Source: Pseudomonas thivervalensis (GTDB lineage: Bacteria > Pseudomonadota > Gammaproteobacteria > Pseudomonadales > Pseudomonadaceae). From it: a DNA stretch of 64,000 nt. Below the pieces are notes generated by a model. It searched no databases. It was given only the letters and a program-made list of their open reading frames with translations, and had not been told where the DNA came from. Made by a program: the position numbers and the translations under genes. This document shows, piece after piece, positions 3,182-27,056 of this stretch (the stretch's first letter is position 1; the number at the start of each line of letters is the position of its first letter). The stretch is from assembly GCF_001269655.1 (NCBI RefSeq), contig NZ_LHVE01000019.1:1-64000 (forward strand), read 5' to 3'.

Positions 3182-3334
3182 GTGGCGAGGGCGCTTGCTC
3201 CCGCTCGGCGGTGTAGGAGCTGGCGAAGCCTGCGATCTTTTGATCTTGTCGACTCAATGGGCTGCGGAAAGATCGCAGCCTCGCTTCGCTCGACAGCTCC
3301 TACAGGGCCCAGCGGGAGCAAGCTCCCTCGCCAC
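3182..3334. repeat. Composite REP: family 3 enclosing family 2
   Basis: Outer arms GTGGCGAGGGCGCTTGCTCC and its inverse (GGGAGCAAGCTCCCTCGCCAC) enclose a family-2 palindrome running from GTAGGAGCTGGCGAAGC to its inverted end CAGCTCCTAC. Same architecture as 56349-56514. Confidence 0.85.
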
Positions 3335-3500
3335 AGGGTCAGCGTTTTTTTCAGTTTCCTAGGTGTCTGGCGCAGATAAATGCACAAATAGATGCCTACC
3401 CGCCCTCATTCTCAAGAAATACCCGCCAGCAACCCTTCAACCTATCGTAATCTCCCACCTGTATACGCCCAGCCCCGCCACCGGCCGAGATCTCACCCCG

Positions 3501-4124
3501 ATGCCCTCCATCTACCAACTCAAGCCCGCCTTTCAAAACCTGCTGCGCCCCATGGTTCAACGCCTCTACAACAACGGTGTCACCGCCAACCAGGTCACCC
3601 TGCTCGCGGGTATCGTCTCGGTGTTGGTGGGGGCGCTCATTGCCTGGTTCGCCAACCATCCGTGGGTGTTCATCCTGGTGCCGGTGTGGATGTTCCTGCG
3701 CATGGCGCTGAATGCCGTGGACGGGATGCTGGCGCGGGAGTTTGGCCAGCAATCGCATCTGGGCGCCTACCTCAACGAGCTATGCGATATCATCGCCGAC
3801 GCTGCCTTGATCCTGCCCTTTGCCCTGTTTGCCGATACCAGTCTTCTGCTCGTGTTGTTGGTCACGCTGTTGGCGTTGTTCAGCGAATACGCCGGCGTGC
3901 TGGGGGCGATGGTGGGGGCTTCGCGGCGGTATGACGGGCCGATGGGCAAGAGTGATCGCGCCTTTGTGTTTGGCGTGTTGGCGACCGGTATTGCCCTGGG
4001 TTGGCTCGGGGCACTCTGGGTAAATGGTGTGATGGCGGTGGTTGCCGCCCTGCTGGTTTATACCTTGGTCAATCGGGTCCGTCATGGCCTGGGCCAGGTG
4101 ACGGAAAACGCTCCCTCAGCATAA
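3501..4124 (+). CDS. ynbA: YnbA-like CDP-alcohol phosphatidyltransferase
   Basis: A 207-residue integral membrane protein of the CDP-alcohol phosphatidyltransferase family, which transfers a phosphatidyl group from CDP-diacylglycerol to an alcohol. The signature lies at about residues 75-100: NAVDGMLAR, eight residues, then GAYLNELCDIIAD. It matches D-x2-DG-x2-AR-x8-G-x3-D-x3-D except that the first and third aspartates are asparagines. Hydrophobic segments surround it. The frame is open upstream to 3363, but ATG 3501 fits the start of the conserved protein; no good ribosome site is visible. It is followed after 10 bases by the ynbC-like gene, as in an operon. The alcohol substrate is unknown. 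Confidence 0.85.
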   Translation: MPSIYQLKPAFQNLLRPMVQRLYNNGVTANQVTLLAGIVSVLVGALIAWFANHPWVFILVPVWMFLRMALNAVDGMLAREFGQQSHLGAYLNELCDIIADAALILPFALFADTSLLLVLLVTLLALFSEYAGVLGAMVGASRRYDGPMGKSDRAFVFGVLATGIALGWLGALWVNGVMAVVAALLVYTLVNRVRHGLGQVTENAPSA

Positions 4125-4134
4125 GGAAGTTGCA

Positions 4135-5892
4135 ATGCGCGAAGCCCAACACCGGACATTCACCACCCACGATGGCGTGGAACTGTTCTACCAACACTGG
4201 CCGGCTGTCGACGTGGCAGCGGGTGAACCTCGCCAGGCTGTGTTGTTGTTCCATCGCGGTCATGAACACTCCGGGCGCATTGCGCACCTGGTGGATGAAC
4301 TGGGCCTGCCCGGGTTCGACTTCTTTGCCTGGGACGCCCGTGGCCATGGCCAGTCGCCGGGCGAACGGGGCGACAGCCCGAGTTTCGCCACCAGCGCACG
4401 GGACGTGCAGACCTTCTGCGACCACATCGGCGCCGCGCATCAGATCGACGAGTCGAACATTGCCGTGGTCGCCCAAAGCGTCGGCGCGGTGATCGTGTCC
4501 ACCTGGGTTCACGACTACGCACCGCGCATTCGCTCGCTGGTGCTGGCATCGCCGGCCTTCAAGGTCAAGCTCTATGTGCCGTTCGCCCGGCCGGGCCTGG
4601 CGCTGATGCGCAAGTTTCGCGGCAATTTCTTCGTCAACAGCTACGTCAAGGCGAAATTCCTCAGCCATGACCCGGAGCGGGTGGCGTCCTACGACAGCGA
4701 TCCGTTGATCACCAAGGCTATTTCGGTGAACGTGCTGCTGGGCCTGTATGAAGCCGCCGACCGCGTGGTGGCCGATGCCCAGGCGATCCAGGTGCCGACG
4801 CAGTTGCTGATCTCCGGCTCGGACTTCGTCGTGCACCGCAAACCCCAGGAGCAGTTCTTCGAACGCCTGGGCAGCCTGCACAAGGAGAAGCACATCCTGC
4901 CGGGGTTCTTCCACGACACCCTCGGCGAGAAGAACCGTGCGCCAGCCATCGCCAGTGCCCGCCGCTTCATCCTGCAGAACTTCGCCCGTCCGTTGGAGCG
5001 CCCTTCCCTGCTGGACGCCGACCGCCTGGGCGCGACCTGCGCCGAAGCCGAGACCCTGGCCACGCCGCTGCCGCACAACTCGCTGCGTGACCTTTACTGG
5101 CGCATGACCCGCGCCAGCATGCGCTTTGGCAGCAAATTGTCCGCCGGGGTGAAACTGGGCTTCGACACCGGGTTCGATTCCGGCAGTACCCTGGATTACG
5201 TCTACCGCAACCGCCCCACCGGCACCTCGGCGCTGGGCAAGATGATCGACCAGAACTACCTCAACTCCATCGGCTGGCGCGGCATTCGCCAGCGCAAGTT
5301 GCACGTCGAGGAATTGCTGCGCCTGGCGATGGCCGAGTTGCGCGCCCAGGACCGCGAGGTGCGCATCGTCGACATCGCCGCTGGTCATGGCCGCTACATT
5401 CTCGAAGCGCTGCAAGGCGTCAGCCCGTTGCCCGAATCGATCCTGCTGCGCGACTACAGCGACATCAACGTGCGCGACGGCAGTGCGCTGATCGTCGAAA
5501 AAGGCTTGGGCGACATCGCTCGATTCGTCAAAGGCGATGCCTTCGACCGCCAGGACCTGGCGGCGCTGGAACCGAAACCGACCCTCGCCGTGGTGTCCGG
5601 CCTGTACGAGCTGTTTGCCGATAACCAGATGGTCGGCGGCTCCCTCGCCGGCTTGGCCGAAGCCGTGGAGCCTGGCGGTTTCCTGGTCTACACCGGCCAG
5701 CCGTGGCACCCGCAACTGGAACTGATCGCCCGCGCCCTCACCAGCCATCGCGCAGGGCAAGCCTGGGTGATGCGTCGACGTACCCAGGCGGAAATGGACC
5801 AATTGGTTGAAGCGGCGGGCTTCCGCAAGATCACCCTGCGTGTCGATGAATGGGGCATTTTCAGCGTTTCGCTGGCGCAGCGAGTGCAGTAA
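4135..5892 (+). CDS. ynbC: YnbC-like alpha/beta hydrolase fused to methyltransferase
   Basis: A 585-residue two-domain protein. Residues about 1-285 form an alpha/beta hydrolase of the serine-aminopeptidase/monoglyceride-lipase type: nucleophile Ser115 in VVAQSVGA, likely Asp230 (SGSDF) and His260 (PGFFHDTLG). Residues about 385-585 are a class I SAM-dependent methyltransferase with motif I at 411-421 (IVDIAAGHGRY). The length equals the one I recall for E. coli YnbC. Start ATG 4135 has AAGGAAG just upstream; the stop overlaps the next start (TAATG). In this operon it may deacylate and methylate a lipid or its head group; that is inference. Confidence 0.9.
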   Translation: MREAQHRTFTTHDGVELFYQHWPAVDVAAGEPRQAVLLFHRGHEHSGRIAHLVDELGLPGFDFFAWDARGHGQSPGERGDSPSFATSARDVQTFCDHIGAAHQIDESNIAVVAQSVGAVIVSTWVHDYAPRIRSLVLASPAFKVKLYVPFARPGLALMRKFRGNFFVNSYVKAKFLSHDPERVASYDSDPLITKAISVNVLLGLYEAADRVVADAQAIQVPTQLLISGSDFVVHRKPQEQFFERLGSLHKEKHILPGFFHDTLGEKNRAPAIASARRFILQNFARPLERPSLLDADRLGATCAEAETLATPLPHNSLRDLYWRMTRASMRFGSKLSAGVKLGFDTGFDSGSTLDYVYRNRPTGTSALGKMIDQNYLNSIGWRGIRQRKLHVEELLRLAMAELRAQDREVRIVDIAAGHGRYILEALQGVSPLPESILLRDYSDINVRDGSALIVEKGLGDIARFVKGDAFDRQDLAALEPKPTLAVVSGLYELFADNQMVGGSLAGLAEAVEPGGFLVYTGQPWHPQLELIARALTSHRAGQAWVMRRRTQAEMDQLVEAAGFRKITLRVDEWGIFSVSLAQRVQ

Positions 5893-7235
5893 TGAGCGCC
5901 GTCATCGCTCCGGCCCGCGAACCCGCACTGTTGAAACCGGCAGTGCTGTGGCTGCTGTTGTTGGCGCCGCTGTTCTTCACCACCTACGGCTTCGCCACCT
6001 GGGTCACCGCCCAGCGTGACGACGTCGGCACGCTGGTGTTCGCCTGGGAAAGCCACATGCCGTTCATGGCCTGGACCATCGTGCCGTACTGGTCGATCGA
6101 TCTGCTGTACGGCCTGTCCTTGCTGTTGCCCACCAGCCGCGACGAACTCAAGCGCCACGCCTTGCGCCTGCTCACGGCCCAGGTGATTGCGGTCAGTTGT
6201 TTCCTGCTCTGGCCGTTGCGCTTCACCTTCCCCCGGCCAGAAATGGATGGGCTGTTCGGGTGGTTGTTCGAGGTGCTGGCGGGCTTCGACAAGCCGTTCA
6301 ACCAGGCGCCGTCGCTGCACATCGCGTTGCTGGTGGTGCTCTGGGTCTGTTACCAGCGGCATCTGCAGGGTTTCTGGCGCTGGGTGATGCACGGTTGGTT
6401 CGCGTTGATCGGCGTGTCGGTGCTGACCACGTATCAGCATCACTTCATTGACCTGCCAACGGGTGCGTTGGCCGGTTGGTTGTGTGTCTGGTTGTGGCCG
6501 CTGGATCGACCGAGTCCGCTGTTTAGTGCACGTCTGGCAGCGGATCCTGCGCGCCGACGCCTGGCCTTGCGTTATGGCCTGGGCGCGGCGGCGCTGTTCG
6601 TCCCGGCGTTTGCCTGGGGCGGCGCGTGGCTCTGGCTGATCTGGCCGGCGGTGGCGGTGCTCATGGTGGCGCTGAATTACCTGGTGTTCGGTGCCGATGG
6701 CTTCCAGAAACGTGCCGATGGCCGCTTGAGCCCGGCGGTGCGTTGGTTGCTGGCGCCTTACCTGGCGGCGGCGTGGATCAATTCCCGCTGCTGGACGCGC
6801 AAGCATCCGCAGCCGGACCAGGTGGCGGATAATGTCTGGCTGGGGCGAATTCCTACGCCGATGGAACTCAAGGACAGTACGTTTACCGGGGTGCTCGACC
6901 TCTGCGCGGAACTGTCCATGGACAGCACGAATGTCGCCTATCGTTCATTGCCGGTGCTCGACCTGACGGCGCCGACCGCCGAGCAATGCCTGAAAGCGGC
7001 AGAGGCCATCGAAAGCCTGCGCCAGCACGGGCCGGTGCTGGTCTGCTGCGCCCTGGGCTATTCGCGCAGCGCCACGGCGGTAGTCGCCTGGTTGCTGCAC
7101 AGCGGCCGGGCGGCGAGTGTCGATGCGGCTATCGTGCAGATCCAGCGCGTTCGACCGCGTATCGTCTTGCATGCGGCGCACCGTCGGGCACTGGAACAAT
7201 TATCCACAACGCTGGGGAATGCTCATGATCAGTGA
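5892..7235 (+). CDS. ynbD: YnbD-like PAP2-type membrane protein fused to dual-specificity phosphatase
   Basis: A 447-residue fusion. Residues about 15-270 are a multi-pass membrane domain of the PAP2/inositolphosphorylceramide-synthase type, with APSLHIA (about 139-145) and TTYQHHFIDLPTG (179-191) giving the paired histidines and the aspartate of that active site. Residues about 310-440 are a cytosolic dual-specificity phosphatase with the CX5R loop C386-ALGYS-R392. Start ATG 5892 overlaps the ynbC stop by one base. The phosphatase domain recalls lipid-phosphate phosphatases such as PTPMT1, so a job removing phosphate from a newly made phosphatidyl-alcohol phosphate is plausible but unproven. 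Confidence 0.85.
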   Translation: MSAVIAPAREPALLKPAVLWLLLLAPLFFTTYGFATWVTAQRDDVGTLVFAWESHMPFMAWTIVPYWSIDLLYGLSLLLPTSRDELKRHALRLLTAQVIAVSCFLLWPLRFTFPRPEMDGLFGWLFEVLAGFDKPFNQAPSLHIALLVVLWVCYQRHLQGFWRWVMHGWFALIGVSVLTTYQHHFIDLPTGALAGWLCVWLWPLDRPSPLFSARLAADPARRRLALRYGLGAAALFVPAFAWGGAWLWLIWPAVAVLMVALNYLVFGADGFQKRADGRLSPAVRWLLAPYLAAAWINSRCWTRKHPQPDQVADNVWLGRIPTPMELKDSTFTGVLDLCAELSMDSTNVAYRSLPVLDLTAPTAEQCLKAAEAIESLRQHGPVLVCCALGYSRSATAVVAWLLHSGRAASVDAAIVQIQRVRPRIVLHAAHRRALEQLSTTLGNAHDQ

Positions 7236-7680
7236 TATGGAGCTCCACACCGTGGCGAGCCTGTTGCGCCGGGGTCATTCGCTGGACCAACTGTCCACGG
7301 GGCTGACGCTCCTGGCGGCGCTGCTGGGGTTGGGGCAGTGGTTGGCGGGCGTGATCGATCCGTGGTTGCTGCTGTTGAGTGCGGCGCTACTGGTGCTCGG
7401 TGTGCTGGAAAAATACTGGGCGCTGCGCGTGGCATTTGACGCCGATCTGTTCCAGCGCATGGCGGACAGCACCCACTCCCTGGCCGAACGCACCTATGAA
7501 CTGGATCAAGCCCTCACCGCGTTAGGGCTGCAACCCGCCGAACGCGCCGGGCGCCTGTGGACCGAACGGCGGCACGGCGCGTTGTTGCTGCTGCGCCGGC
7601 AATCGCGGTTGCTGGCCGTACAAATTGTCCTGGTGCTGGGCTTCATCCTGGCCAGTCCCTGGTTAGCGTCAGGTCTCTAG
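7225..7680 (+). CDS. Small membrane protein of the ynb-like operon, unknown function
   Basis: A 152-amino-acid protein-coding frame (151 residues plus stop) starting ATG 7225 with GGGGA six bases upstream, overlapping the end of the ynbD-like gene by 11 bases. Two adjoining hydrophobic stretches near residues 20-60 (LLAALLGLGQWLAGV, LLLLSAALLVLGVL) and one at the C-terminus (LAVQIVLVLGFILAS) suggest three membrane helices, with a soluble loop containing charged residues between. I do not recognise a family. Its overlap with ynbD implies translational coupling and membership in the lipid pathway. E. coli ynbABCD has no counterpart that I know of. Confidence 0.75.
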   Translation: MISDMELHTVASLLRRGHSLDQLSTGLTLLAALLGLGQWLAGVIDPWLLLLSAALLVLGVLEKYWALRVAFDADLFQRMADSTHSLAERTYELDQALTALGLQPAERAGRLWTERRHGALLLLRRQSRLLAVQIVLVLGFILASPWLASGL

Positions 7681-7693
7681 ATAGTTTTTGTGT

Positions 7694-7826
7694 GTAGGAG
7701 CTGGCGAAGCCTGCGATCTTTTGATCTTGATCTTTTGCTCTCGACTCAATGGGCAGTGGAAAGATCGCAGCCTCGCTTCGCTCGTCAGCTCCTACAGGGC
7801 CCAGCGGGAGCAAGCTCCCTCGCCAC
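7694..7826. repeat. Composite REP (family 2 plus family-3 half) inside the ynb-like operon
   Basis: GTAGGAGCTGGCGAAGCC at the left pairs with the inverted CAGCTCCTAC at the right, followed by a family-3 arm ending in CTCCCTCGCCAC. It fills the gap between the small membrane protein and the acyltransferase and could attenuate or process the transcript there. Confidence 0.85.
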
Positions 7827-7861
7827 AGTTATGCTTATGTTTCTCAGGACAAGGAATCCTC

Positions 7862-8482
7862 ATGTTCGAACCCGTGGTCGCCAACCTCATCACCTCCGCC
7901 GCCCGCATGGTCACGGGCGCTCGCAGCCTGTGGCTCGGCTGTGCGCCGACGCCGGTGCAGCGGATCTACTTCGCCAACCACAGCAGCCACGGTGACTTCG
8001 TGTTGCTCTGGGCCTCGCTACCGCCGGCGCTGCGCAAGCTCACCCGCCCGGTGGCGGGGGCCGACTATTGGCAAACCAGCCCGGTGCGTCGCTACATCAT
8101 CAACCGGGTGTTCAACGGCGTGCTGGTGGACCGCGAGCGCAAGGACCCCGCGTACAACCCATTGCAGCCGATGCTCGATGCGCTGGAAAACGGCGACTCG
8201 CTGATCATCTTCCCGGAAGGCACGCGCAATCCGGAGGAAGGCCTGTTGCCCTTCAAGAGCGGGATCTATCACTTGATGAAAAACCACCCCGAGGTCGAGG
8301 TGATCCCGGTGTGGATCGCCAACCTCAACCGCGTCATGCCCAAGGGCCGTGTCCTGCCGCTGCCGCTGTTGTGCACCACCAGTTTCGGTGCGCCGCTGTG
8401 CATCGAAGACGGTGAAAGCAAAGAGCAATTCCTTGAACGCAGCCGCGCCGCGCTGCTGGCACTGGCCCCGGAGCACGTCTGA
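7862..8482 (+). CDS. PlsC-type lysophospholipid acyltransferase
   Basis: A 206-residue acyltransferase of the 1-acyl-glycerol-3-phosphate acyltransferase family. The catalytic HX4D motif is H40-SSHG-D45 and the substrate-binding motif FPEGTR lies at 117-122. Start ATG 7862 is preceded by AAGGA at a good distance; open frame further upstream runs through a REP and is not coding. One base separates its stop from the CdsA-like start. Within this operon it would place an acyl chain on a lysolipid, possibly the product of the hydrolase domain of the YnbC-like protein. Confidence 0.88.
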   Translation: MFEPVVANLITSAARMVTGARSLWLGCAPTPVQRIYFANHSSHGDFVLLWASLPPALRKLTRPVAGADYWQTSPVRRYIINRVFNGVLVDRERKDPAYNPLQPMLDALENGDSLIIFPEGTRNPEEGLLPFKSGIYHLMKNHPEVEVIPVWIANLNRVMPKGRVLPLPLLCTTSFGAPLCIEDGESKEQFLERSRAALLALAPEHV

Positions 8483-8483
8483 C

Positions 8484-9416
8484 ATGGATCGATATACCCT
8501 GATGTTGTTTGGCGGGATCGGCGCGATTCTGGTGCTGGCTTCGCTGATTGGTTTCATTCTCAGGCTGCGGACCAAAGGCGCACCGAACTCGGTGATCGAC
8601 AACCTCAACGCTCGGATCAATGCCTGGTGGATCATGGTGTTGGTGATCGGCGTGGCGTTCTGGCTCGGCAACGCGGCGGTCATCCTGTTGTTCTACGCGG
8701 TGTCGTTCTATGCCCTGCGGGAATTCCTGACCCTGACACCGACCCGGCGCAGTGACTACCCGGCCCTGGTCGCGGCGTTCTACCTGGCGCTGCCGCTGCA
8801 ATACCTGTTGATCTATTACGACTGGTACGGGCTGTTTTCGATCTTTATCCCGGTGTACGTGTTCCTGCTGCTGCCGATCCTGGCGTCCCTGGGCGGCGAC
8901 AGCACGCACTTCCTCGAACGTGCTTCGAAGGTCCAGTGGGGCTTGATGATCGCGGTGTTCTGCATCTCTTTCGTCCCCGCGCTCCTGACCTTGGACATCG
9001 CCGGTTTCGAAGGTCGCAACCTGTTGCTGATCGCCTACCTGGTGATCGTGGTGCAGCTGTCGGATGTGTTGCAGTACGTCTGCGGCAAGCTGTTCGGCAA
9101 ACACAAGATCGCACCGAACCTGTCGCCCTCGAAAACCGTGGAAGGCTTTGTCGGCGGCATTTTCCTGGCCTCGTTGATCGGTGGCGCGCTGTGGTGGATC
9201 ACGCCGTTCAATCCCTGGCAGTCGTTCCTCATCGCCTTGCTGATCAACCTGCTGGGCTTTGCCGGCGGCATTGTCATGTCGGCGATCAAGCGCGACCGCG
9301 GCGTCAAGGACTGGGGCCACATGATCGAAGGCCACGGCGGCATGCTCGACCGGCTGGACTCGGTCTGCTTCGCCGCGCCGATCTTCTTCCACCTGGTGCG
9401 GTACTGGTGGACCTGA
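8484..9416 (+). CDS. ynbB: CdsA/YnbB-like phosphatidate cytidylyltransferase
   Basis: A 310-residue multi-pass membrane protein. The CDP-diacylglycerol synthase signature is intact: SPSKTVEGF at about residue 213 and KRDRGVKDWGHMIEGHGGML followed by DRLDS from about residue 265. It makes CDP-diacylglycerol from phosphatidate and CTP, the donor needed by the YnbA-like enzyme encoded first in the operon. This is the operon-specific paralogue; the housekeeping cdsA is expected elsewhere beside dxr. Start ATG 8484 lies just after the acyltransferase stop. Last gene of the operon. Confidence 0.9.
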   Translation: MDRYTLMLFGGIGAILVLASLIGFILRLRTKGAPNSVIDNLNARINAWWIMVLVIGVAFWLGNAAVILLFYAVSFYALREFLTLTPTRRSDYPALVAAFYLALPLQYLLIYYDWYGLFSIFIPVYVFLLLPILASLGGDSTHFLERASKVQWGLMIAVFCISFVPALLTLDIAGFEGRNLLLIAYLVIVVQLSDVLQYVCGKLFGKHKIAPNLSPSKTVEGFVGGIFLASLIGGALWWITPFNPWQSFLIALLINLLGFAGGIVMSAIKRDRGVKDWGHMIEGHGGMLDRLDSVCFAAPIFFHLVRYWWT

Positions 9417-9468
9417 AAAAGCCTGCGGCGAACCCCTGAACCTGTGGGAGTCTGTGGTGAATATCTAA

Positions 9469-9496
9469 CCTGTGGGAGCAAGCTCGCTCCCACAGG
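9469..9496. repeat. Single family-1 REP palindrome, possible terminator hairpin
   Basis: CCTGTGGGAG-CAAGCTCG-CTCCCACAGG is a perfect 10-bp stem. It lies between two converging genes (CdsA-like and metallohydrolase) and has no T-run, so it could act as a bidirectional weak terminator only. Confidence 0.7.
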
Positions 9497-9518
9497 TGTG
9501 TGTGCCCAGACGGGTGGC

Positions 9519-10394
9519 TTAGCGGTGGGTCGACGGCATGGCCGTGGAATCAACACGGACGGCACGAGCCTGACGGGTAGCGTGCTCCCACTCCCTGGCA
9601 TCGTGACTGCAAAAAATCTCGAGATGCCCGTTCTGGCCCAAGGCCAGTTCCCGCAGGCGGTCCTGGTTGCGCATTCGTGCCGGGCGGTCGGTGTCCATCA
9701 TGTACTGATAGAACGTCAACCCCGGCGGGCAATGCCGCTCGGGCTGATGAACTTCATCATGGAAGAAATACGCATCACCGGCATGGAGCATCCAGCCGTC
9801 CGGCGTTCGCAGGGCGATCCCGGCGTGGCCAGCGGTGTGTCCCCGGAGCGGCACCAGGAAAATGTCCTCTTCTTCGGCCCCGACCAACGCGCGCACCGAG
9901 TCAAAACCGAACCAGGTGTCGCCTTCGGTGGTGTAGAACTCCCAGTTGTCGACGCCCTGCCACTGGCGCGCCTGGAATCGTCGGCGACTTATCCAGTTAT
10001 CGGCGCTGCGCGCCATCGCCATCTCGTCGCGCATCACATGCACCCGGGCCTGGGGGAAATCCTGAAGTCCACCGGCGTGATCGAAATCCAGGTGCGTCAG
10101 CAGGATATGGCGCACATCGCTGGTATCGAAGCCCAACCGGCGCACCTGCTCCAGCGCGGTGAGGCGATGTTCGAACTTGATGTTGTTGAACGCCCGGAAG
10201 AATCGGCTGAGCCGTTCGGGCGTCTGAACATCCCGCTGGCCAAAACCGGTGTCCACCAGGACCAGGCCATTGCTGTCGGTTTCGATCAACAGGCAATGGC
10301 ACACCAGGCACGCCGTCAATCCCCGGCTATACCCATCGAACAAGGCCCCGCCCACTGGACACATGCAACCGCAGTTCAGGTGGTGGATATGCAT
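9519..10394 (-). CDS. Metallo-beta-lactamase-fold hydrolase
   Basis: A 291-residue MBL-fold metallohydrolase. The metal motif is TH101-L-D103-F-D105-H106-AGG, i.e. HxDxDH, so the usual second histidine is an aspartate. A downstream RGHTAGHAG supplies the third-site histidine and HAGDAY the bridging aspartate. The N-terminus is cysteine-rich (HHLNCGCMCPVGG). The layout resembles the AHL-lactonase-like branch of the superfamily, but the substrate cannot be named. Start ATG 10394 was chosen because AGGAGG lies just upstream (minus strand); the open frame extends further without support. Stands alone between two convergently placed repeats. Confidence 0.85.
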   Translation of the reverse strand: MHIHHLNCGCMCPVGGALFDGYSRGLTACLVCHCLLIETDSNGLVLVDTGFGQRDVQTPERLSRFFRAFNNIKFEHRLTALEQVRRLGFDTSDVRHILLTHLDFDHAGGLQDFPQARVHVMRDEMAMARSADNWISRRRFQARQWQGVDNWEFYTTEGDTWFGFDSVRALVGAEEEDIFLVPLRGHTAGHAGIALRTPDGWMLHAGDAYFFHDEVHQPERHCPPGLTFYQYMMDTDRPARMRNQDRLRELALGQNGHLEIFCSHDAREWEHATRQARAVRVDSTAMPSTHR

Positions 10395-10544
10395 GGGGCC
10401 TCCTGTTACGAATGGCGTGCCAGTCTGTGGATTTTCATGGACTCTTTGAAAATCGACAGGGAGGTGGCCGGCGCAATTCCGCAAAGGCGACAGGCGGTGG
10501 CCATGCCTGGCCAAGCACATTCACCTTGGGAGCTTGAGCAGACC

Positions 10545-10670
10545 GTAGGAGCTGTCGAGTGAAACGAGGCTGCGATCTTTCCCCAGACACTTGAATCTCA
10601 AGCGAAAGATCAAAAGATCGCAGCCTTCGGCAGCTCCTACACAAGCGCAGCGGGAGCAAGCTCGCTCGCC
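10545..10670. repeat. Family-2 REP with family-3 half
   Basis: GTAGGAGCTGTCGAGTGAAA on the left and the inverted GCAGCTCCTAC on the right enclose GATCTTTCCCCAGACACTTGAATC; a family-3 arm follows. It ends six bases from the yjfC stop. Confidence 0.85.
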
Positions 10671-10676
10671 AGTGTA

Positions 10677-11834
10677 TTAATCAAGAATCAAGTGCGGCAA
10701 AAACCGGCTCGAATCCTTGGTGATCAGGCTGTTGTCTTCCCGCACGCCGATGCCGGCCGCCTGGTCGCCGATGACCCAGGAGCCGATCAGCGTGTAGCTG
10801 TCGTCAAACTTCGGCAGTGGCGCGAATTCCTGGAGGATGAACGGCGCGTCGGTGTAGGGGCCGTCTTCCTTGACGATCAGGCCATCAGCGGTCTGCAGCT
10901 CGATGTTGGCGCCTTCCCGGGAAAAGAACGGCTTGCGCACCCAGCCCTTGGGCACCGCTTTGCTGGTGTCGGTGTCCAGGTGGGCGGCGAGCAGGTTCGG
11001 GTGGCCTTTGTTGAATTCCCACAGCAGCGGCAGGATGCCTTTGTTGGAGATGATCGACTTCCAGGCCGGCTCGAAAAACTGCGTATCGCACCGGGCAATC
11101 GCCTCACCAAATGGCTCGTGGAAGATGAATTCCCAGGCGTGCAGCTTGAACAGGTGCGGGATCCAACGTTCTTCCAAGTCGACGAAACGCCCATCGCTGT
11201 TGAGGCCGATGTCTTCGATATCGATGTGCCGCGATTCAATGCCGACTTTTTCCGCGATCAGGCGCAAGTAATCCGTGGTGCCCTTGTCTTCCACCGAGCC
11301 TTTCATCGAGGCGAAATAGAACGGCTCCTTGAGCTGCAACTGGGCAAAGGCCTGGTGCAGCTTGGTGTCGATGCTGTTGAACTGGTCGGCATGGGCCGGC
11401 AGCACGCCGCGCGCGATGCATTGCTCCAGCCAGCCCCACTGGAACGCCGCCGCTTCGTAGAGGCTGGTCGGCGTGTCGTAGTTGAGTTCCAGCAGCTTGG
11501 CGGGGCCCGTGCCGTTGTAGGAGAAATCCATGCGCCCATACAGGTGCGGGTGGCCTTCCAGCCATGAAGTGCGCACCAGATCGAAGAACGGCGCGGGAAT
11601 GCTCAGGCGCTCCAGCAATTCTTCGCTCTGGACCACGCGCGCCACAAGGTCCATGCACATCTCATGGAGCTCGGTGGTCGGGTCTTCCAGATCGTCCTCG
11701 ATCTGCCTGAGGGTGAACTGGTAGTACGCGCTTTCGTCCCAATAGGGTTCATCGTCGATGGTGTGGAACAGAAAGCCGAGTTGCTCGGCGGTCTGTTTCC
11801 AGTCAGGACGTTCTGCGCAATGGATCTTCTTCAT
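10677..11834 (-). CDS. yjfC: YjfC/YgiC-like glutathionylspermidine-synthase-type ATP-grasp protein
   Basis: A 385-residue protein of the glutathionylspermidine synthase C-terminal (ATP-grasp amide ligase) family; it lacks the amidase domain of E. coli Gss, as do YjfC and YgiC. Recognisable segments are LYGRMDFSYNGTGPAKLLEL (about residues 98-117), LELNYDTPTSLYEAA and RKPFFSREGANIELQ. The true substrate of this subfamily is not established; peptide or lipid-linked amide formation is only a family-level guess. Last gene of the yjf-type operon, 12 bases after the DUF1190 gene. Confidence 0.88.
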   Translation of the reverse strand: MKKIHCAERPDWKQTAEQLGFLFHTIDDEPYWDESAYYQFTLRQIEDDLEDPTTELHEMCMDLVARVVQSEELLERLSIPAPFFDLVRTSWLEGHPHLYGRMDFSYNGTGPAKLLELNYDTPTSLYEAAAFQWGWLEQCIARGVLPAHADQFNSIDTKLHQAFAQLQLKEPFYFASMKGSVEDKGTTDYLRLIAEKVGIESRHIDIEDIGLNSDGRFVDLEERWIPHLFKLHAWEFIFHEPFGEAIARCDTQFFEPAWKSIISNKGILPLLWEFNKGHPNLLAAHLDTDTSKAVPKGWVRKPFFSREGANIELQTADGLIVKEDGPYTDAPFILQEFAPLPKFDDSYTLIGSWVIGDQAAGIGVREDNSLITKDSSRFLPHLILD

Positions 11835-11846
11835 GGCCCTGGTTCC

Positions 11847-12548
11847 TTAGCCGCCGGAGCTGCTCGAACCGCCCCAACCGCTGCGGGCACTGGACTTGCT
11901 GCCGAAGCCACCGCGAGAGGTGGACGACGCGACGGACATCGCCTTGCTGGTTTTGATGGAGTCGGTGTAGCTGCCGTACCGCGCCTGGTTGGACCGGGTA
12001 AAGGTCGAGCCGCTGGAAACCCGCTGGCTGAGCGTCGAGGACCCGAAGTTGCCGCGATCATCGCGGTAACGGTAGACCGGCTCGGAGTAATAGCTGCTGC
12101 GGTTGCCGCTCAGCATGTTGCCGATCAGCATGCCGGTCAGCAGGTTGCCGAAGCCTGAACCACCGACGTTCGCTTCCGAAGCCGGCAACTGGGCCCGGGC
12201 GGCATCGACCTCGGACTGCGTGACTTCACCATCGGCGTTCAGCTCGAAACCACCCAGCTTGGGAAGGAACTTGCCGGCCGAGTCCTGCTGGCACCAATCG
12301 GGCACGAAGTCGGCATCGCAATCGGCCTGGCTATCGTACGTCGGCGCGATGCGACGATGCTCACCCATGGCGGTCATGTAGGCGTTGGCGCAAATGTCCA
12401 CCGGCAGCTTTTCATCGACACATTGCTGGACGGACTCGAAGTTGTACTTCTTCTGCAACTTGTAGGTTTTTTCCGTTGGCCCGCAGCCAGATATCGCCAG
12501 GGCGACCGACGCGGCCAGCGAGAGCTGGACGTACTTGCTTCGTTTCAT
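11847..12548 (-). CDS. yjfM: DUF1190 (YgiB/YjfM-type) lipoprotein
   Basis: A 233-residue DUF1190 protein. Signal peptide with lipobox LAISGC (Cys about 22). The conserved Cys-rich core follows (QQCVDEKLPVDICANAYMTA, YDSQADCDADFVPDWCQQ). The C-terminal third is low complexity, rich in Ser and Gly (ending GGSSSSGG). The family is found beside YjfC/YgiC ligases in Gammaproteobacteria; function unknown. Placed between the DUF350 and ligase genes with short gaps (19 and 12 bases). Confidence 0.88.
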   Translation of the reverse strand: MKRSKYVQLSLAASVALAISGCGPTEKTYKLQKKYNFESVQQCVDEKLPVDICANAYMTAMGEHRRIAPTYDSQADCDADFVPDWCQQDSAGKFLPKLGGFELNADGEVTQSEVDAARAQLPASEANVGGSGFGNLLTGMLIGNMLSGNRSSYYSEPVYRYRDDRGNFGSSTLSQRVSSGSTFTRSNQARYGSYTDSIKTSKAMSVASSTSRGGFGSKSSARSGWGGSSSSGG

Positions 12549-12567
12549 CGGGATCTCCGTGGCGCAA

Positions 12568-12996
12568 TCAGTTTGTGGAAGGCGTCATGCACGCGGCGTT
12601 CAACATGCCGACGCTGATGGCCACGGCGGCGATGTAGATACCCGCGGCGATTTCACCGTTCTTGATGCGCGCGGAAGCACCCTTGAGCACCAGGCTGGTC
12701 ACCAGGAACGCCAGCAACTGGACGACCGCGGCGATCACCGCCCAGACGACGAAGTCGAGCATGCTGATCGAGTAGGCAATCACATTGCTGGCCGGAATGG
12801 CGAAACCGATGACGGCGCCGCCCAGGGCGATGGCGGCGGCCACGTTGCCCGAGCGGATCAGTTCGAATTCCTTGTGCGGCGTGACGCGGGTGTAGATGAA
12901 CTGGAACAGCGCGAACAACACGGCGGCACCGAGGATGTACATGACAAAGCCAAGCACGGCGGCTTTGTTCAGGGAAATGGAGAGTGCTTCAAGCAT
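12568..12996 (-). CDS. yjfL: DUF350 membrane protein (YjfL-type)
   Basis: A 142-residue four-helix inner-membrane protein of the DUF350 family; hydrophobic segments near residues 12-34, 52-72, 80-104 and 115-138. The GNVAAAIALGGAVIGFAIP stretch in the second helix and the later NGEIAAGIYIAAVAISVG stretch look like an internal repeat, typical of DUF350. Function unknown. Spacing to neighbours is 15 and 19 bases, so it is cotranscribed with the PspA-operon genes. Confidence 0.88.
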   Translation of the reverse strand: MLEALSISLNKAAVLGFVMYILGAAVLFALFQFIYTRVTPHKEFELIRSGNVAAAIALGGAVIGFAIPASNVIAYSISMLDFVVWAVIAAVVQLLAFLVTSLVLKGASARIKNGEIAAGIYIAAVAISVGMLNAACMTPSTN

Positions 12997-13011
12997 GGAC
13001 TTCTTCCTTAT

Positions 13012-13674
13012 TCAAAGAGTGTTCAGGTCAGTGGTGTACAGCGAAATACCCAGCGAAGTGCTCAGGCTGACGGTGCCTTCGGCGTCCTCTTCGACGGAGA
13101 ACAGCAGGAACTCCCGGCGATCCGTCAGGCCGGTGTCGCGGGCGTACAACATCGAACGGTGCTCGACACTGTAGGACTCTTCCGGATTGCTCACGCGCTC
13201 GCTCATTCCCACCAGTTCGGTCTGGCCCGCCTCGGTGCCCCATTCGCGGGTGTACTCGACACCGTCGTGGGTGTAGGTCGGCAGGCCGATCAGGCTTTCC
13301 GGGCCGGCGAGGCGACGCAATTCCGCTTCGCTGTTGATCGTGACGTAGCTGAGGTAGTTGAACAGGATCACCGACTCGACCTGCCCGGCGATGTCGCCGC
13401 TGGTGTGCACTTGCAGCCAGTAGTCTTCGTCGTTCATGTAACAGCGCGACAGCCAGTTCGACTGCCCGAGGTCGACGATGCCCAAGCTCCAGATCTGTTG
13501 GTTACCCGGGATGACCACGCTGCTGTTGCCGTCGAGCAACAACTTGAGCGTGGTATCGAACATGACCTGCTTGCCGGAGGCCAGACCCAGCGGCCCAACG
13601 ATGGGCGCGCTATTGCTGGCTGTCGTGTTCGCATTCGGGGCCTCAAGCCCCATCAACTGTTTAAACCACCCCAT
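13012..13674 (-). CDS. yjfK: DUF2491 protein (YjfK-type)
   Basis: A 220-residue DUF2491 family protein (starts MGWFKQLMGLEAPN), matching E. coli YjfK in type and position. Soluble, no signal peptide, no catalytic motif that I can see. ATG 13674 has AAGGAAA nearby and lies 14 bases inside the 3' end of the ion-channel gene, so translation is probably coupled. The open frame continues 32 codons upstream inside the channel gene, which is not the natural start. Confidence 0.85.
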   Translation of the reverse strand: MGWFKQLMGLEAPNANTTASNSAPIVGPLGLASGKQVMFDTTLKLLLDGNSSVVIPGNQQIWSLGIVDLGQSNWLSRCYMNDEDYWLQVHTSGDIAGQVESVILFNYLSYVTINSEAELRRLAGPESLIGLPTYTHDGVEYTREWGTEAGQTELVGMSERVSNPEESYSVEHRSMLYARDTGLTDRREFLLFSVEEDAEGTVSLSTSLGISLYTTDLNTL

Positions 13675-14695
13675 GGGAAATTTCCTTGAGACGCGCCGAG
13701 GCGATATAGAAGAGTTCGCCGCCCACCACACGAGTGGCGCCGGGCGGGTTGATCGATGGGTGTCGGGCACCTTTGGCCCGATAGCCGATCAGCGTAGCGT
13801 TGTGCTGCTCTTTCATCCGGGTGTAAAGATCGCCAAACGTCGCTTCAAACGCCTCGGGCAGCTTCATCAGGTACTGGGTGGCGCCTTCGCCGACACAGAG
13901 CAATTCATTGATGACCACCGACGAGCCCGGGTCCTGGGAAGCACGCACCAGCATTTCGATCGCCATGCTGGAGGTGCATTCCAGGCTCGGCGCATAGGCG
14001 CTGGCGAGGGCGGCAATTTCGCTGTCATTGAAATGGGCGACCACATGTCCGACAGGTCCCAGTCGATTGACCGCCAGCACGGTGGCCAGGGTCAGGTCGT
14101 CGGAATGGGTGCGCACCAGCACGCGTTCGGCACCCGGCACGCCGGCGCGCTGCAACAGGGCGACGGAGGACAGGCTGTCGCCCTTGATGTAGGTGGCCTT
14201 GCCGGGCATGGGATTTTCTTCGAGATCGCAATCGCAGATGACGATCAGGTTGTCATTGGACGTTTCGTCCTGCAGCAGCAGTTCAATGACCCGCTCGCTG
14301 GAGGCACCCTCCCAACCGATGAGCACCGTGTGGCCGGCCTTGCCAGTGAAATCGCCTTTGCCCTTCATGCCTTTTCTCCATACATCGATGACGCTGCTGG
14401 TGGTTTTGCCGATGACCGTCGTCAACAGGGCAATGCCCCCGAGCATGATCCAGGTCGCCACGAAAATTCGTCCGGCGGAGGTCTGTGGCAACAGGTCGCC
14501 ATAGCCGACGGTGAGGGTGGTGGTGAGATAGAAGTAGATAAACGTGGCGGCGGCGATGAGGTGTTGCTCGCCCAAAAGCACCAGGCCGATCCAGGCCGTG
14601 GACAGGTGCACGCCCAACGCAATGGCCAGGCCCGCCCAGCCGAACCGATGGAAGAAGGACGAAGCGTACGTGCGCAACAGAAGGAAAATCGACAT
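13661..14695 (-). CDS. Potassium-channel-like protein with RCK/TrkA-N domain
   Basis: A 344-residue protein with two or three N-terminal membrane helices, a pore loop with selectivity filter T62-VGYGD (62-67), and a C-terminal NAD-binding RCK/TrkA-N domain starting about residue 120 (HTVLIGWEGASSERV, then ICDCDLEENP). A gated potassium channel in the inner membrane is the likely role. ATG 14695 chosen over an upstream ATG because AAGGAAAA precedes it. The gene sits between the pspA and DUF2491 genes; E. coli yjfIJKLMC lacks it, so it is an addition to the module that links PspA with ion flux. Confidence 0.87.
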   Translation of the reverse strand: MSIFLLLRTYASSFFHRFGWAGLAIALGVHLSTAWIGLVLLGEQHLIAAATFIYFYLTTTLTVGYGDLLPQTSAGRIFVATWIMLGGIALLTTVIGKTTSSVIDVWRKGMKGKGDFTGKAGHTVLIGWEGASSERVIELLLQDETSNDNLIVICDCDLEENPMPGKATYIKGDSLSSVALLQRAGVPGAERVLVRTHSDDLTLATVLAVNRLGPVGHVVAHFNDSEIAALASAYAPSLECTSSMAIEMLVRASQDPGSSVVINELLCVGEGATQYLMKLPEAFEATFGDLYTRMKEQHNATLIGYRAKGARHPSINPPGATRVVGGELFYIASARLKEISHGVV

Positions 14696-15004
14696 TTCGT
14701 CCCTGACTCCGTGGGGCTTGGTTCCTGGCGGGATCATCGCTCGGGCGCCAGGGGGCGCGAGCGTAGTGGCCGGACAGCATTAAACCTGTTGCGCGGCTTG
14801 GATAAAAGTACCTGCCTCACAATTAAATCCATGACGTGCCGAACACTATTGTGGCGAGGGAGCTATGTAGGAGCTGTCGAGTGCAACGAGGCTGCGATCT
14901 TTCCCCAGACACTTGAATCTCAAGCGAAAGATCAAAAGATCGCAGGCTTCGCCAGCTCCTACAAAGTCCAGCACGAGCAAGTCCCTCGCTACGAGCTTGA
15001 CCGA
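14696..15004. other. Intergenic region inside the yjf-type operon, repeat only
   Basis: This 309-bp gap between the pspA and ion-channel genes holds the REP at 14851-14992 and about 150 bp with no recognised feature. A second promoter for the distal genes could lie here, but I found no clear one. Confidence 0.5.
14851..14992. repeat. Composite REP (families 3/2/3), degenerate outer arms
   Basis: GTGGCGAGGGAGCTA joins GTAGGAGCTGTCGAGTGCAA; the inverted CCAGCTCCTAC and GTCCCTCGCTAC close it. The outer arm has mutated (TATGT instead of TGCTCC). Confidence 0.85.
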
Positions 15005-15703
15005 TTACTCAGCCGATTTTTTCTTCAAGCGCTCCAGGATCGCATTGGCGCTGCCTTCGTTCGGCGTGATGCCGGCATCGCGCAGCTTGCGCTCCAGGTC
15101 GGAGCCGGTCGAAGCCTCGGCCAGTTCGTCCTGGGCTTGCAGCTCAGCGGCGCGTTGCTGTTGCTTGGCTTGCAGGCGATTGAGCGTACCGACGGCGGTT
15201 TCCAACTTGCCATTGGCGCCGCCACTGGCGATCGAAGCGCTGACCTGGGCCTTCTGCACGCTTTCGCGGGCCTTGGCCATGTCCACTTGCTGACGCAGGC
15301 TCTTGATGCGGCTTTCGGCCTTGGTGATGTCTTTGCGCATGTTGTCCGCGTAGCCGCCGAATTCGGTCGCGTGCTTTTGCTCGGCGTCCAGTTCGGTGGT
15401 CAGGGTCGAAATGGCTTCGGCCACTTCCAGTGCCAGGTCTTCGAGGTTGGCCTGGATCGCGGCCAGGGCCTTGGCTTCCAGGTCCTTGATCTTGGCGTTG
15501 TATTCGCCAACACGATCGGTTGCCAGCTTGTGCTTGGCCATGATGGTGACCAGCTCACGCTTGGCATTGGCCAGCGCGCTGTCGGCATCGCGGATTTCCT
15601 GGTCGAGGATGCGCAGGGCCTGTTGATCGACGATCGATTCGCCGACTTCGCTGGCACCGCCACGCAGTGCGGTGAACAACTTGCTCCAGATGGACTGAGT
15701 CAT
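15005..15703 (-). CDS. yjfJ: PspA/IM30-family protein (YjfJ-type)
   Basis: A 232-residue PspA/IM30 (ESCRT-III-like) protein, almost entirely coiled coil, with an N-terminal amphipathic helix (MTQSIWSKLFTALRGG) and long Glu/Ala/Lys-rich heptads. PspA proteins bind and stabilise damaged inner membrane. The sequence is not the pspABC-operon PspA; its neighbours (DUF2170 upstream, DUF2491/DUF350/DUF1190/ligase downstream) mark it as the YjfJ branch. Start ATG 15703 has TAGGAACC upstream. It lies 22 bases after the DUF2170 gene. Confidence 0.9.
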   Translation of the reverse strand: MTQSIWSKLFTALRGGASEVGESIVDQQALRILDQEIRDADSALANAKRELVTIMAKHKLATDRVGEYNAKIKDLEAKALAAIQANLEDLALEVAEAISTLTTELDAEQKHATEFGGYADNMRKDITKAESRIKSLRQQVDMAKARESVQKAQVSASIASGGANGKLETAVGTLNRLQAKQQQRAAELQAQDELAEASTGSDLERKLRDAGITPNEGSANAILERLKKKSAE

Positions 15704-15725
15704 TGGATGGTTCCTATTCGGCGAA

Positions 15726-16415
15726 TTAGATGAAGAAGCGTTCGAACGCTTCGCTGGCGCGCTGGACGTTGTCGACGAGGGTTTTGACCTCGGTGACGAC
15801 GTTGGTCAGGCTGGAGTCGGAGCTCAGCGCGCCGAACATGTTGTAGACGACCTGTCCGTTGGGCATGGTCTCGATGCCGATGGACGACAGCGGGAACATT
15901 TCCCGGCTGCGCAGCACGGCGTCGTTGAATGCCGCCACGTCGCTGATCGACTCGACGTCCACCAGGACGGTATCGACGATGATCTGGTCGCCGACCACGG
16001 CGATGTAGATCGGCAAGCCACCGAAGTCATTCATTTCCAGCTTGATGCTGGACTCGGAGCCTTGGACGAGGGAGAGGGTGATGTCGTTCGCGACCACTTC
16101 GTCCAGGGCCTGAAGGGCGCTGTAGAGGCGATCGATGTTCCAGTTATTACCTGCGCTCATGTAATCCTCCGACATGAATGAGCCAGCCAGAATCGGTTGG
16201 CGTAGCTGTTTCTCCATTTGCTTGAGCAGGCTTCGGTTTTCAGGAAGCACCCAAGTCTCGTGTTTCACATACCCGGCGGCACTCAGGCCCGCGCGCATCT
16301 GCTTCATGTAGAAGCTCGACGGTTTTTTCGCCGAGGGTTTGGCGCGCTCTCCCGTGCGGCTCGCTGAATCGGTTACAGACCCGTCTGGCGGATCTGATGG
16401 AGAGCTGGTTGACAT
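15726..16415 (-). CDS. yjfI: DUF2170 protein (YjfI-type) with probable N-terminal DNA-binding region
   Basis: A 229-residue protein and first gene of the yjf-type operon. Residues about 86-229 match DUF2170 (NNWNIDRLYSALQALDEVV onward, ending SEAFERFF). Residues about 33-75 (SSFYMKQMRAGLSAAGY, HETWVLPENRSLLKQMEKQL) look like the ribbon-helix-helix type seen in MazE-like antitoxins: a short strand-like WVLP after a basic helix. Residues 1-32 are disordered. Two identical CTCACGCGTGAG palindromes lie 24-80 bases upstream of the ATG, so autoregulation is an attractive inference. A shorter product starting at Met86 is possible but would discard this region. Confidence 0.8.
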   Translation of the reverse strand: MSTSSPSDPPDGSVTDSASRTGERAKPSAKKPSSFYMKQMRAGLSAAGYVKHETWVLPENRSLLKQMEKQLRQPILAGSFMSEDYMSAGNNWNIDRLYSALQALDEVVANDITLSLVQGSESSIKLEMNDFGGLPIYIAVVGDQIIVDTVLVDVESISDVAAFNDAVLRSREMFPLSSIGIETMPNGQVVYNMFGALSSDSSLTNVVTEVKTLVDNVQRASEAFERFFI

Positions 16416-16669: not shown

Positions 16670-17503
16670 TTACGGATAGCTAAAGCTTTTGACCAACGTC
16701 AGCTCGCCCACCGCCCGCATCGGCACGACGAAGGTTTCCATCTTCTCGTTCGGTGTGCCTTCTTCGGTGATCACGGTGACTTGTGCGGTGGTCAGGGCTT
16801 GTTGCGCTTGTTCTCCACCGCCCTCACCTTCCTCGCCGTCGTCCTGATAGCGATAACCGCCGCCGTAGTAGTTCACATACACCAGGTATTGGCCTTTGAT
16901 CGGCGCGGGCATGGCGAAGATTTCCGGGCCGTAGCCGGTGGTGACGTCGACGTCGAGGGCGGCGCCGTTGGCGGCGGCGCGGTCGCCGTACCAGATGTGG
17001 GCACCGTCAGGGGTGACCAGGTGCAGGTCCAGGTCGGTGCCGTCGCTGTCCCAGGTCAGCAATACACGCAGCTTGGCCGGTGTGGCGCCGCCGCTGGTGT
17101 TGAGGAATTGCGTGCGGTGGCGCTGCTGGCCATCGGCGCTGCGCACTTCAACGCTGTTGCTGCCGTTGGGGAACGAGAACGGCCGGTCGAATCGGCCTTC
17201 TTCATCCAGTTTCAGCGGCAGGCTCACACCGTTGACGATCAACTGACCCGGCGCGTTGCTGTCCTTGGACGCGCCCTTGATCTGGCCGGTGATGCGCGCG
17301 GTGTTGGCCTGGCCCGGGGGCGTGTTGACCGACGAGGCCGGGTAGTTGACGGTCTGGCTGAAGCTTTCGCCTTCACCGCCCGGCGCACCGCTGCGCCAGC
17401 CGCCAATAGGGGTGTCGAGCTTGATGGAGTCGGCGGCGGTGGCCAGAGGCAACGCGGTCAGGGCGCAGAGCAACAGCAAGACCTGTGGATAACGGAGTGT
17501 CAT
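16670..17503 (-). CDS. yfaP: YfaP-like DUF2135 periplasmic protein (distal copy)
   Basis: A 277-residue secreted protein: signal peptide ending near ALPLATAADS, then an Ig-like region (NGSNSVEVRSADGQQ) and a DUF2135 domain with the family hallmark LLTWDSDGTDLDLHLVTPDG near residues 150-169 and YLVYVNYYGGGY. An acidic Gly/Glu insert (DDGEEGEGGGEQ) follows. Acidic clusters may bind Ca2+ but this is untested. Starts three bases after the yfaQ stop and is the last gene of the operon. Paralogous to the gene at 26082-26870 at the operon's start. Confidence 0.85.
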   Translation of the reverse strand: MTLRYPQVLLLLCALTALPLATAADSIKLDTPIGGWRSGAPGGEGESFSQTVNYPASSVNTPPGQANTARITGQIKGASKDSNAPGQLIVNGVSLPLKLDEEGRFDRPFSFPNGSNSVEVRSADGQQRHRTQFLNTSGGATPAKLRVLLTWDSDGTDLDLHLVTPDGAHIWYGDRAAANGAALDVDVTTGYGPEIFAMPAPIKGQYLVYVNYYGGGYRYQDDGEEGEGGGEQAQQALTTAQVTVITEEGTPNEKMETFVVPMRAVGELTLVKSFSYP

Positions 17504-17506
17504 GGT

Positions 17507-19126: not shown

Positions 19127-19127
19127 G

Positions 19128-26052: not shown

Positions 26053-26081
26053 AAGGGCCTGTTCATCCGTGGAGCGGATAC

Positions 26082-26870: not shown

Positions 26871-27056
26871 GTATGCCTCCTGCCATGCACGACGCAACCC
26901 GGCACCCTTCCCGGGCGCTGCTTGTGATTATTCGGGTTTCGTCTGAAGGCCCCGTCGCAAGGGGGCCGTAGATGGCGCGAAGAGTAGCCATTTGACGGAT
27001 TTTTCACAATCGGGGAACACGCGATTCTGTGTGGGAAATCACGTACTGAGAGGGGC

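Follow-up and report, generated by a model that had tools for sequence, protein, structure and literature searches.

Positions 3501 to 9416 of a 64,000-nucleotide stretch of Pseudomonas thivervalensis DNA (hereafter the window; the genome is 6.58 Mb) hold six genes that are the ortholog of arc1A-F (PA2541-PA2536) of P. aeruginosa, in the same order, and thus make up an operon that is already known. We find that the CDP-alcohol phosphotransferase encoded by the first gene departs from the signature of its family at two metal ligands, where it has asparagine (hereafter N-type), and that this enzyme, together with a private CdsA paralogue and a private PlsC-like acyltransferase, is the likely core of the operon, to which the other three proteins are probably accessory. 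This likely core is what is new here. The reading that we favor, to which we give a little under an even chance, is that the arc1 (ynb-type) operon has a private three-step lipid core built on the N-type transferase, with accessory tailoring by the remaining proteins. Judged by protein C (98%), the locus is closest to those of P. agronomica, P. kilonensis and P. brassicacearum. We refer to the genes as A (transferase), C (hydrolase-methyltransferase), D (PAP2-phosphatase), S (small membrane protein), P (PlsC-like) and B (CdsA-like):

3501-4124, plus strand: A, YnbA/Arc1A-type CDP-alcohol phosphotransferase with N-type signature, 207 amino acids (PF01066, identity to YnbA, PA2541 primer)
3711-3800, plus strand: signature of A, N71-x2-D74-G-x2-A-R-x8-G88-x3-N92-x3-D96-x3-D100 (N71 and N92 in 39/39 arc1/ynb copies)
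4135-5892, plus strand: C, monoacylglycerol-lipase-like hydrolase fused to a Methyltransf_20 methyltransferase, 585 amino acids (Pfam, residues, fold matches)
5892-7235, plus strand: D, PAP2-like membrane half fused to a dual-specificity phosphatase (DSP), 447 amino acids (Pfam, residues, model, PTPMT1 match)
7225-7680, plus strand: S, small membrane protein, 151 amino acids (co-occurrence with PF12147)
7862-8482, plus strand: P, PlsC-like acyltransferase, 206 amino acids (PF01553, conserved motifs)
8484-9416, plus strand: B, YnbB/Arc1F-type CdsA paralogue, 310 amino acids (PF01148, YnbB alignment)

The open reading frame (ORF) calls and a Pfam scan, in which the starts of D, P and B were set mechanically, confirm six plus-strand ORFs in the order A-C-D-S-P-B, with natural ends at 3501 and 9416 and with the domains that the initial annotation had given them (for the PAP2 half of D, see the score below cut-off given later). 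Its statement that all six overlap does not hold, as overlap is limited to C/D (1 nt) and D/S (11 nt); the intergenic spacings are A/C +10, C/D -1, D/S -11, S/P +181 and P/B +1 nt.

The identity with arc1 was established on P. aeruginosa PA7 (L169), because the published primers map exactly and the gene order is the same. The PA2541 start primer matches the start of A with 0 mismatches in 21 positions and the PA2536 start primer matches the start of B with 0 in 19; between these two sites the order of the PA7 genes is A-C-D-S-P-B. Six of the seven remaining published arc1 primer pieces match PA7 with 0 or 1 mismatch, and the PA2536_R2 primer has no good match within the PA7 stretch examined. 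The C proteins of the window and of PA7 are 82% identical. The window has the same six genes in the same order as arc1, but differs in lacking the motif ACANGGA before A and in having a REP-like (repetitive extragenic palindromic) insertion before plsC.

The arc1 genes, antagonism resistance cluster 1, come from transposon sequencing under attack by Burkholderia thailandensis; the cluster is induced via Gac/Rsm, its mutants are defective in defense, and it protects P. aeruginosa against type VI attack (PMC8926400). In that report, the mutants equal wild type in survival of four general stresses, no single tested B. thailandensis effector explains the defect, and loss of Arc1 modestly raises competitor survival as well (PMC8926400). 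Its authors tie five of the six products to phospholipid metabolism, four of them being like enzymes of phosphatidylglycerol synthesis (PMC8926400). Disruption of PA2537 (plsC) by a transposon made colonies pale on Congo red and lowered survival in a murine airway screen (PMC2246019). Among the matches listed, no later relevant Arc1 paper after 2022 was found besides the original. The lipid idea is plausible and already in print in outline, and the six genes do not make up an undescribed pathway (PMC8926400). The remark of the initial annotation that the E. coli ynb operon has no settled function is likewise outdated by the arc1 phenotype (PMC8926400) and by the published biochemistry of YnbB (PMC6362211, PMC7018664).

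Protein A passes the CDP-OH_P_transf model (PF01066; 31.8 bits, cut-off 22) and fails the PROSITE signature of the family, PS00379, quoted as D-x2-D-G-x2-A-R-x7,8-G-x3-D-x3-D (PMC9385802). All 39 arc1/ynb copies (the window and 38 loci) instead have N-x2-D-G-x2-A-R-x8-G-x3-N-x3-D, Asn replacing the first and the third Asp, which are metal ligands. The genome's own PgsA and PssA have the canonical signature. We compared residues in a separate set of 39 N-type rows (15 arc1/ynb and 24 from places without gene C, including the partnerless L209) and 9 canonical rows; the rows were sorted by their signature residues, and the Asn/Asp contrast between the two groups is therefore by choice. D74, D96, D100, K150, R153 and R192 are invariant in 39/39 N-type rows. 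D100, R67 and K150, all invariant in the N-type rows, occur in only 1, 0 and 2 of the 9 canonical rows, respectively, and R79 varies among the N-type rows. In a maximum-likelihood tree, a branch supported at 97/86 separates the N-type rows and two orphans from the rest; the bootstrap was unsettled and some branches are long. Neither the N-type signature nor the triad was seen among the open-licence papers listed in literature searches or in the passages of PMC9385802 examined.

To describe how the genes are distributed, we used 80 Pseudomonas loci (tblastn), 149 genus genomes, a 398-genome phylum sample and 37 further fetched loci with C. Of the 80 Pseudomonas loci, 77 keep the order A-C-D-S-P-B, and the six-gene set is thus beyond chance; the exceptions are L104 and L137, which stop at contig ends, and L170, which has C-D-S alone. 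Gene C, scored as a strong PF12147 match, is present in 80 of the 149 genus genomes (81 hits at E 0.001, of which one weak hit was dropped), S in exactly the same 80, and D in 77 of them (two weak PAP2-only hits elsewhere were dropped). Three genomes without D have A-C-S-P-B, and in five D is in pieces (G435, G481, G510, G485 and G487; the pieces of G487 are separated by ~2 kb, and the first contains a stop). Within the genus sample, D seems to be lost or broken more often than any other part. A strong score for A was obtained in 87 of the 149 genomes, including all 80 with C. Among the seven with A and without C, six have A-P-B in a row without C, D or S, and G477 has an orphan A with changed signature residues. 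In the phylum sample, PF12147 is matched in 27 of the 398 genomes.

The initial annotation had held the six genes to be a complete pathway, to be refuted by genomes in which they are not kept together. This refuting result was obtained in part: the six A-P-B genomes and the three D-less clusters among the 149, together with the C-D-S of L170, rule out that the six genes are always together. The A-P-B and D-less genomes speak against the six as the complete unit and point to three genes as the likely core.

A profile search with A (E 1e-8) found 57 places in 56 of the 398 phylum genomes, and 27 of these genomes have C. We scored 29 of the places without C; the thirtieth, G227, is A-P-B and was read apart. 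Asn at signature positions 1 and 3 was seen in 20 of the 29, and in 18 of these 20 a B-type gene and a P-type gene both lie within ~6 kb (19/21 with G227). By contrast, none of the seven C-less homologues with the canonical four Asp has both partners; L221 has a weak CdsA-like match ~5 kb away (Fisher's exact test for the triad in N-type versus canonical loci, P = 4e-5, a guide only as the test ignores the relatedness of the loci and the canonical ones are distant matches). L206, an orphan, and L226 show no motif of either kind. Similarly, P and B are both near A in 34 of the 37 further loci with C. A second form of A shares about one third of its residues and gave 17 matches (61-72 bits) in genomes of the genus that lack C; in the four loci examined (L194-L197), this divergent A has its own P and B beside it and the same two Asn (B of L196 is in two pieces). 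We regard the triad as the likely core because there are genomes with A-P-B only and because the N-type signature is associated with CdsA and PlsC neighbors.

The orphan A-type proteins of L188 and L206 lack CdsA and PlsC neighbors and have changed signature residues. Among 20 neighboring ORFs picked mechanically from 15 loci, the triads share no flanking partner except DUF2931, which was seen twice (L195, L210); the DUF2931 gene lies directly upstream of the triad in L195, and likewise in L210, from another family.

Because all arc1/ynb copies read carry replacements at two of the three metal ligands, A might be a non-catalytic scaffold, or a carrier of CDP-diacylglycerol for CdsA and PlsC. 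We consider this very unlikely, since all 39 N-type rows, from two subclades, keep the second Asp, the presumed base, D100, K150, R153 and R192, and since two partnerless orphan copies have changed signature positions.

The nearest solved relatives of A are phosphatidylinositol-phosphate (PIP) synthases (E 3.5e-10). One of these, 6h53, which we take to be mycobacterial, gives a full-length profile match to A (hhalign, 96.6%); the second Asp, the presumed base and both acceptor-phosphate Arg are common to the two, R153 and R192 of A aligning with R155 and R195 (hhalign), whereas Asp 1 and Asp 3 of its signature are Asn in A. PIP synthase binds metal through its first three Asp and probably uses the fourth as base, and its acceptor phosphate is held by R155 and R195 (PMC4634129). 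These likenesses would suit synthesis of phosphatidylinositol via PIP, a reading already weakened and to which we give almost no weight: A scores 73.4 and 52.9 bits against the archaetidylinositol-phosphate and PIP synthase models, its nearest, both below cut-off (170 for the NCBIfam model PIPSynth), the metal-site Asp are Asn, and inositol-phosphate synthase (Inos-1-P_synth, PF01658) is mostly absent from the cluster genomes, being found in 2 of the 38 and not in the window's own. An inositol lipid as product is made unlikely by this count. The only carriers of PF01658 among the cluster genomes, G160 and G311, are of the same genus. As PF01658 was not found in 36 of the 38 cluster genomes, inositol phosphate is unlikely as the acceptor and another phosphorylated alcohol is more likely.

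Glycerol 3-phosphate, which is universal, is one such alcohol, and the operon could be a specialized inducible phosphatidylglycerol line in which PlsC and CdsA are followed by a PgsA-like step that uses glycerol 3-phosphate and then by a PTPMT1-like phosphatase. The homology of four arc1 products to phosphatidylglycerol-synthesis enzymes, as the authors describe it (PMC8926400), agrees with this, as does the place of PTPMT1 at the head of the structural list for D, tied with others. We nevertheless think it unlikely: the models nearest to A are those of archaetidylinositol-phosphate and PIP synthases, window A is not matched by any pgsA model up to E 0.01, the genome's own PgsA does not have the Asn signature, and the triads lack a phosphatase. 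One triad copy of A does match the pgsA model, at 21.2 bits. Given this possible route, the product may fall within the normal PE/PG/CL set and not, as the initial annotation supposed, outside it.

Four of the six genes had been held to match E. coli ynbABCD, which is borne out by comparison with E. coli K-12: YnbA is 45% identical to window A over 194 columns and YnbB 40% to window B over 297 columns, C and D are 56% and 40% identical, respectively, and the domains are alike. The E. coli order is A-B-C-D, with no PlsC-like or S-type gene within the 12 kb examined. YnbA was formerly annotated as a cholinephosphotransferase, a reaction that EcoCyc has withdrawn (PMC3781023). YnbB makes CDP-diacylglycerol in vitro and supports formation of the glycolipid MPIase, not that of bulk phospholipid in CdsA's place (PMC6362211, PMC7018664). 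A product of the operon could then be a sugar-diphosphate lipid such as MPIase, with YnbB making CDP-diacylglycerol and then GlcNAc-PP-DAG (N-acetylglucosamine-diphosphate-diacylglycerol) and with A helping to join a phosphorylated sugar. Overproduction of E. coli YnbB raises MPIase without replacing CdsA for bulk phospholipid (PMC6362211, PMC7018664), and the alignment of window B with YnbB is nearly full-length. A ynbB knockout, however, has no MPIase defect, so that CdsA normally serves, and the scheme given in the available portions of the reports has no place for PlsC and A (PMC6362211, PMC7018664); we regard this explanation as quite improbable.

The two presumed partners of A look active, based on their conserved residues, as do the other enzymes. 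P matches the acyltransferase model (PF01553) with 67.9 bits, and the motifs typical of PlsC, HX4D and FPEGTR, are conserved as H40-x4-D45 and F117-R122. B matches CTP_transf_1 (PF01148) with 248 bits; in addition to its alignment with YnbB, it aligns with E. coli CdsA over the C-terminal 119 columns alone.

Protein C combines a Hydrolase_4 domain (245.7 bits) with Methyltransf_20 (515 bits), and its model has a pLDDT (predicted local distance difference test) of 90.1. Residues 1-283 match monoacylglycerol lipases (7ozm, Z 30.3 over 275 residues; 8ptc, Z 30.2 over 272), with which C shares the S/D/H triad and from which it differs in its A-x-S-x-G elbow and its methyltransferase fusion; residues 316-585 match Bordetella 3ocj, titled possible exported protein (Z 23.4). 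S115, D230, H260, D413 and G417 are conserved, and we take the first three to be the catalytic triad and D413-x3-G417 to be the S-adenosylmethionine loop. In the fold search aimed at the methyltransferase, one domain took up the matches listed. S has no Pfam or NCBIfam match in residues 2-151 up to E 0.01.

The phosphatase half of D matches DSPc (46.2 bits, cut-off 33.5), with a CX5R motif at C386 and R392; these two and D357, to which we assign the general-acid role by position, are invariant, and the pLDDT of the model is 89.4. PTPMT1, the mitochondrial phosphatidylglycerophosphate phosphatase, heads the matches of this half (3rgq, with PI(5)P; Z 18.7, root-mean-square deviation 1.8, 140 residues, 23% identity, CX5R in common), with several other DSPs within 1 Z unit; PTPMT1 differs from D in that D has a PAP2-like membrane half. 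That half scores 23.7 bits, below the Pfam cut-off of 27.2. The PAP2 phosphatase motif reads KX6RP...PSGH...SRX5HX3D, and D keeps its H/H/D triad (H143, H183 and D187, invariant in 37 rows) in a motif that is otherwise broken, with Lys replaced by Pro in 37/37 rows, PSGH present as PS(L/M)H and the Arg of SR mainly Val. In the fold search, which would bear on a kinship with Aur1/SMS-type transferases, the matches listed all fall on the DSP half, with no PAP2 structure among them, and by sequence the membrane half weakly matches phospholipid phosphatase 1 (E 0.008). Of the structure searches by domain that the initial annotation had proposed, those with C and D place the DSP half with PTPMT1 and other DSPs and the halves of C with monoacylglycerol lipase and 3ocj, and leave the PAP2 half without a PAP2 structure among the matches listed. 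As to the suggestion that the PAP2-type domain may pass the head group on, a role other than that of a simple phosphatase is plausible, with H/H/D kept and the phosphate-binding Lys and Arg lost. We infer that this half may handle a phosphodiester rather than a phosphomonoester.

The analysis shows the identity with arc1, the conservation of residues, the modular composition and the grouping of the N-type enzymes; we infer the reactions, their order, the acceptor and the product. Arc1E/PlsC would make or restore a two-chain lipid acid, Arc1F/YnbB would convert it to CDP-diacylglycerol, and Arc1A/YnbA would transfer the phosphatidyl group to a small phosphorylated alcohol. Such a dedicated line from PlsC through CdsA to the transferase is the best reading. 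In the six-gene form, the DSP domain of D would then remove the terminal phosphate. The earlier proposal that the phosphatase strips the phosphate from the transferase product fits the Arg at both acceptor-phosphate places and the top match of the DSP half. The PAP2-like half of D might act on the phosphodiester head group by transfer or release, the lipase-methyltransferase C could trim and methylate the product or a by-product, and S may be a membrane partner.

Several observations weigh against this three-step core. In the 19 kb examined, L091, L092 and L097 carry A and C but neither CdsA nor PlsC, the rest of these genomes not having been searched, and E. coli has B and no PlsC in the stretch examined. 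L199 holds only decayed pieces of A and B, and L209 is N-type without either partner, in a genome not searched further; taken with the preceding cases, these show that the three genes do not always occur together. The seven canonical homologues are weak and distant matches, and two of their stretches are short (L224, L225). A full stretch of 19.7 kb in L170 (P. oryzagri MAHUQ-58) has C-D-S at 9001-12513 but neither A nor P nor B, the opposite of what the A-P-B-only genomes have. The triads carry no phosphatase gene, so that dephosphorylation may fall outside the core reaction. The places of R153 and R192 hold Arg in 4 and 7 of the 9 canonical rows, so neither is specific, and R153 is one residue off R155 in HMMER, being aligned with it only by hhalign and MAFFT. 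Finally, YnbB can feed MPIase, so CDP-diacylglycerol might go elsewhere (PMC6362211, PMC7018664).

Two features of the window concern the control of the operon:

3401-3500, plus strand: leader of A, without ACANGGA and without a clear Shine-Dalgarno sequence
7681-7861, no strand assigned: REP-like hairpin element parting S from plsC (gap length, fold energy)

PA2541 is listed as an RsmA target with a single site around the Shine-Dalgarno sequence (PMC4066749). We counted ACANGGA within 30 nt before gene starts, those of other ORFs being only guessed. The motif precedes A in 43 of 79 Pseudomonas relatives, including PA7, and is rare elsewhere (C 4/80, D 0/80, S 0/79, P 2/77, B 0/77, other ORFs 1/473); it is absent before A in the window. 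No ANGGA of any kind precedes A in 12 of the 79 (L104-L108, L116, L136, L139, L141, L143, L151 and L173). Bare ANGGA was rejected as a marker of the A leader, as 67/79 A and 75/80 C leaders have it and it is not set apart from ordinary Shine-Dalgarno sites. Presentation in a hairpin says little as well: 38 of 43 leaders place GGA in a loop, and shuffled flanks still do so in ~64%. The first gene may have escaped Rsm control in the window's lineage, judging from its leader. The window's genome has three CsrA/RsmA matches and one DUF2339 (arc3A-type) gene.

The gap between S and plsC is 181 nt in the window versus a median of 9 nt in 77 relatives, and exceeds 25 nt elsewhere only in L105 and L108. 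It is filled by the REP-like hairpin (fold energy -66.3 kcal/mol), which seems to change the C-terminus of S. ACAAGGA stands at 7849-7855 before plsC; besides the window, only L105 and L108 have an ACANGGA in this place, likewise ACAAGGA next to an insertion. Copies of the REP-like motif GTAGGAGCTG[CG]CGAAG are scattered over the window, at 3213 and 7694 on the plus strand and at 10640, 14962, 39226 and 56480 on the minus strand.

The genes beside the operon, at 10677-16415 on the minus strand, look to us like E. coli yjfIJKLMC, and those at 16670-26897, also minus, look like a yfa/macroglobulin operon. We take PA4492 to be a member of the latter, in which case two Rsm targets may sit ~7 kb apart in the window. 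PA4492 is listed beside PA2541 as a single-site RsmA target (PMC4066749). The 10677-16415 genes were considered as arc2 and rejected, as arc2 has a MoxR ATPase and a VWF (von Willebrand factor) protein (PMC8926400) and the translations look like the yjf set.

It is possible, if on balance doubtful, that the N-type transferases are a separate class with a rebuilt metal site which, with a private CdsA and PlsC, forms a stand-alone module, patchily distributed in Pseudomonadota, that makes an undescribed phospholipid for envelope defense, with arc1 and ynb as elaborations that finish or recycle this lipid. An N-type group that breaks the signature at two metal ligands, as all arc1/ynb copies read do, would show that members of the family can do without the signature, and may point to another acceptor or another use of metal. 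The likely core reduces both arc1, a defense cluster, and ynb, a long-standing puzzle of E. coli, to a likely three-gene unit that is directly testable. If its product is new, it would be a lipid class linked to protection against other bacteria.

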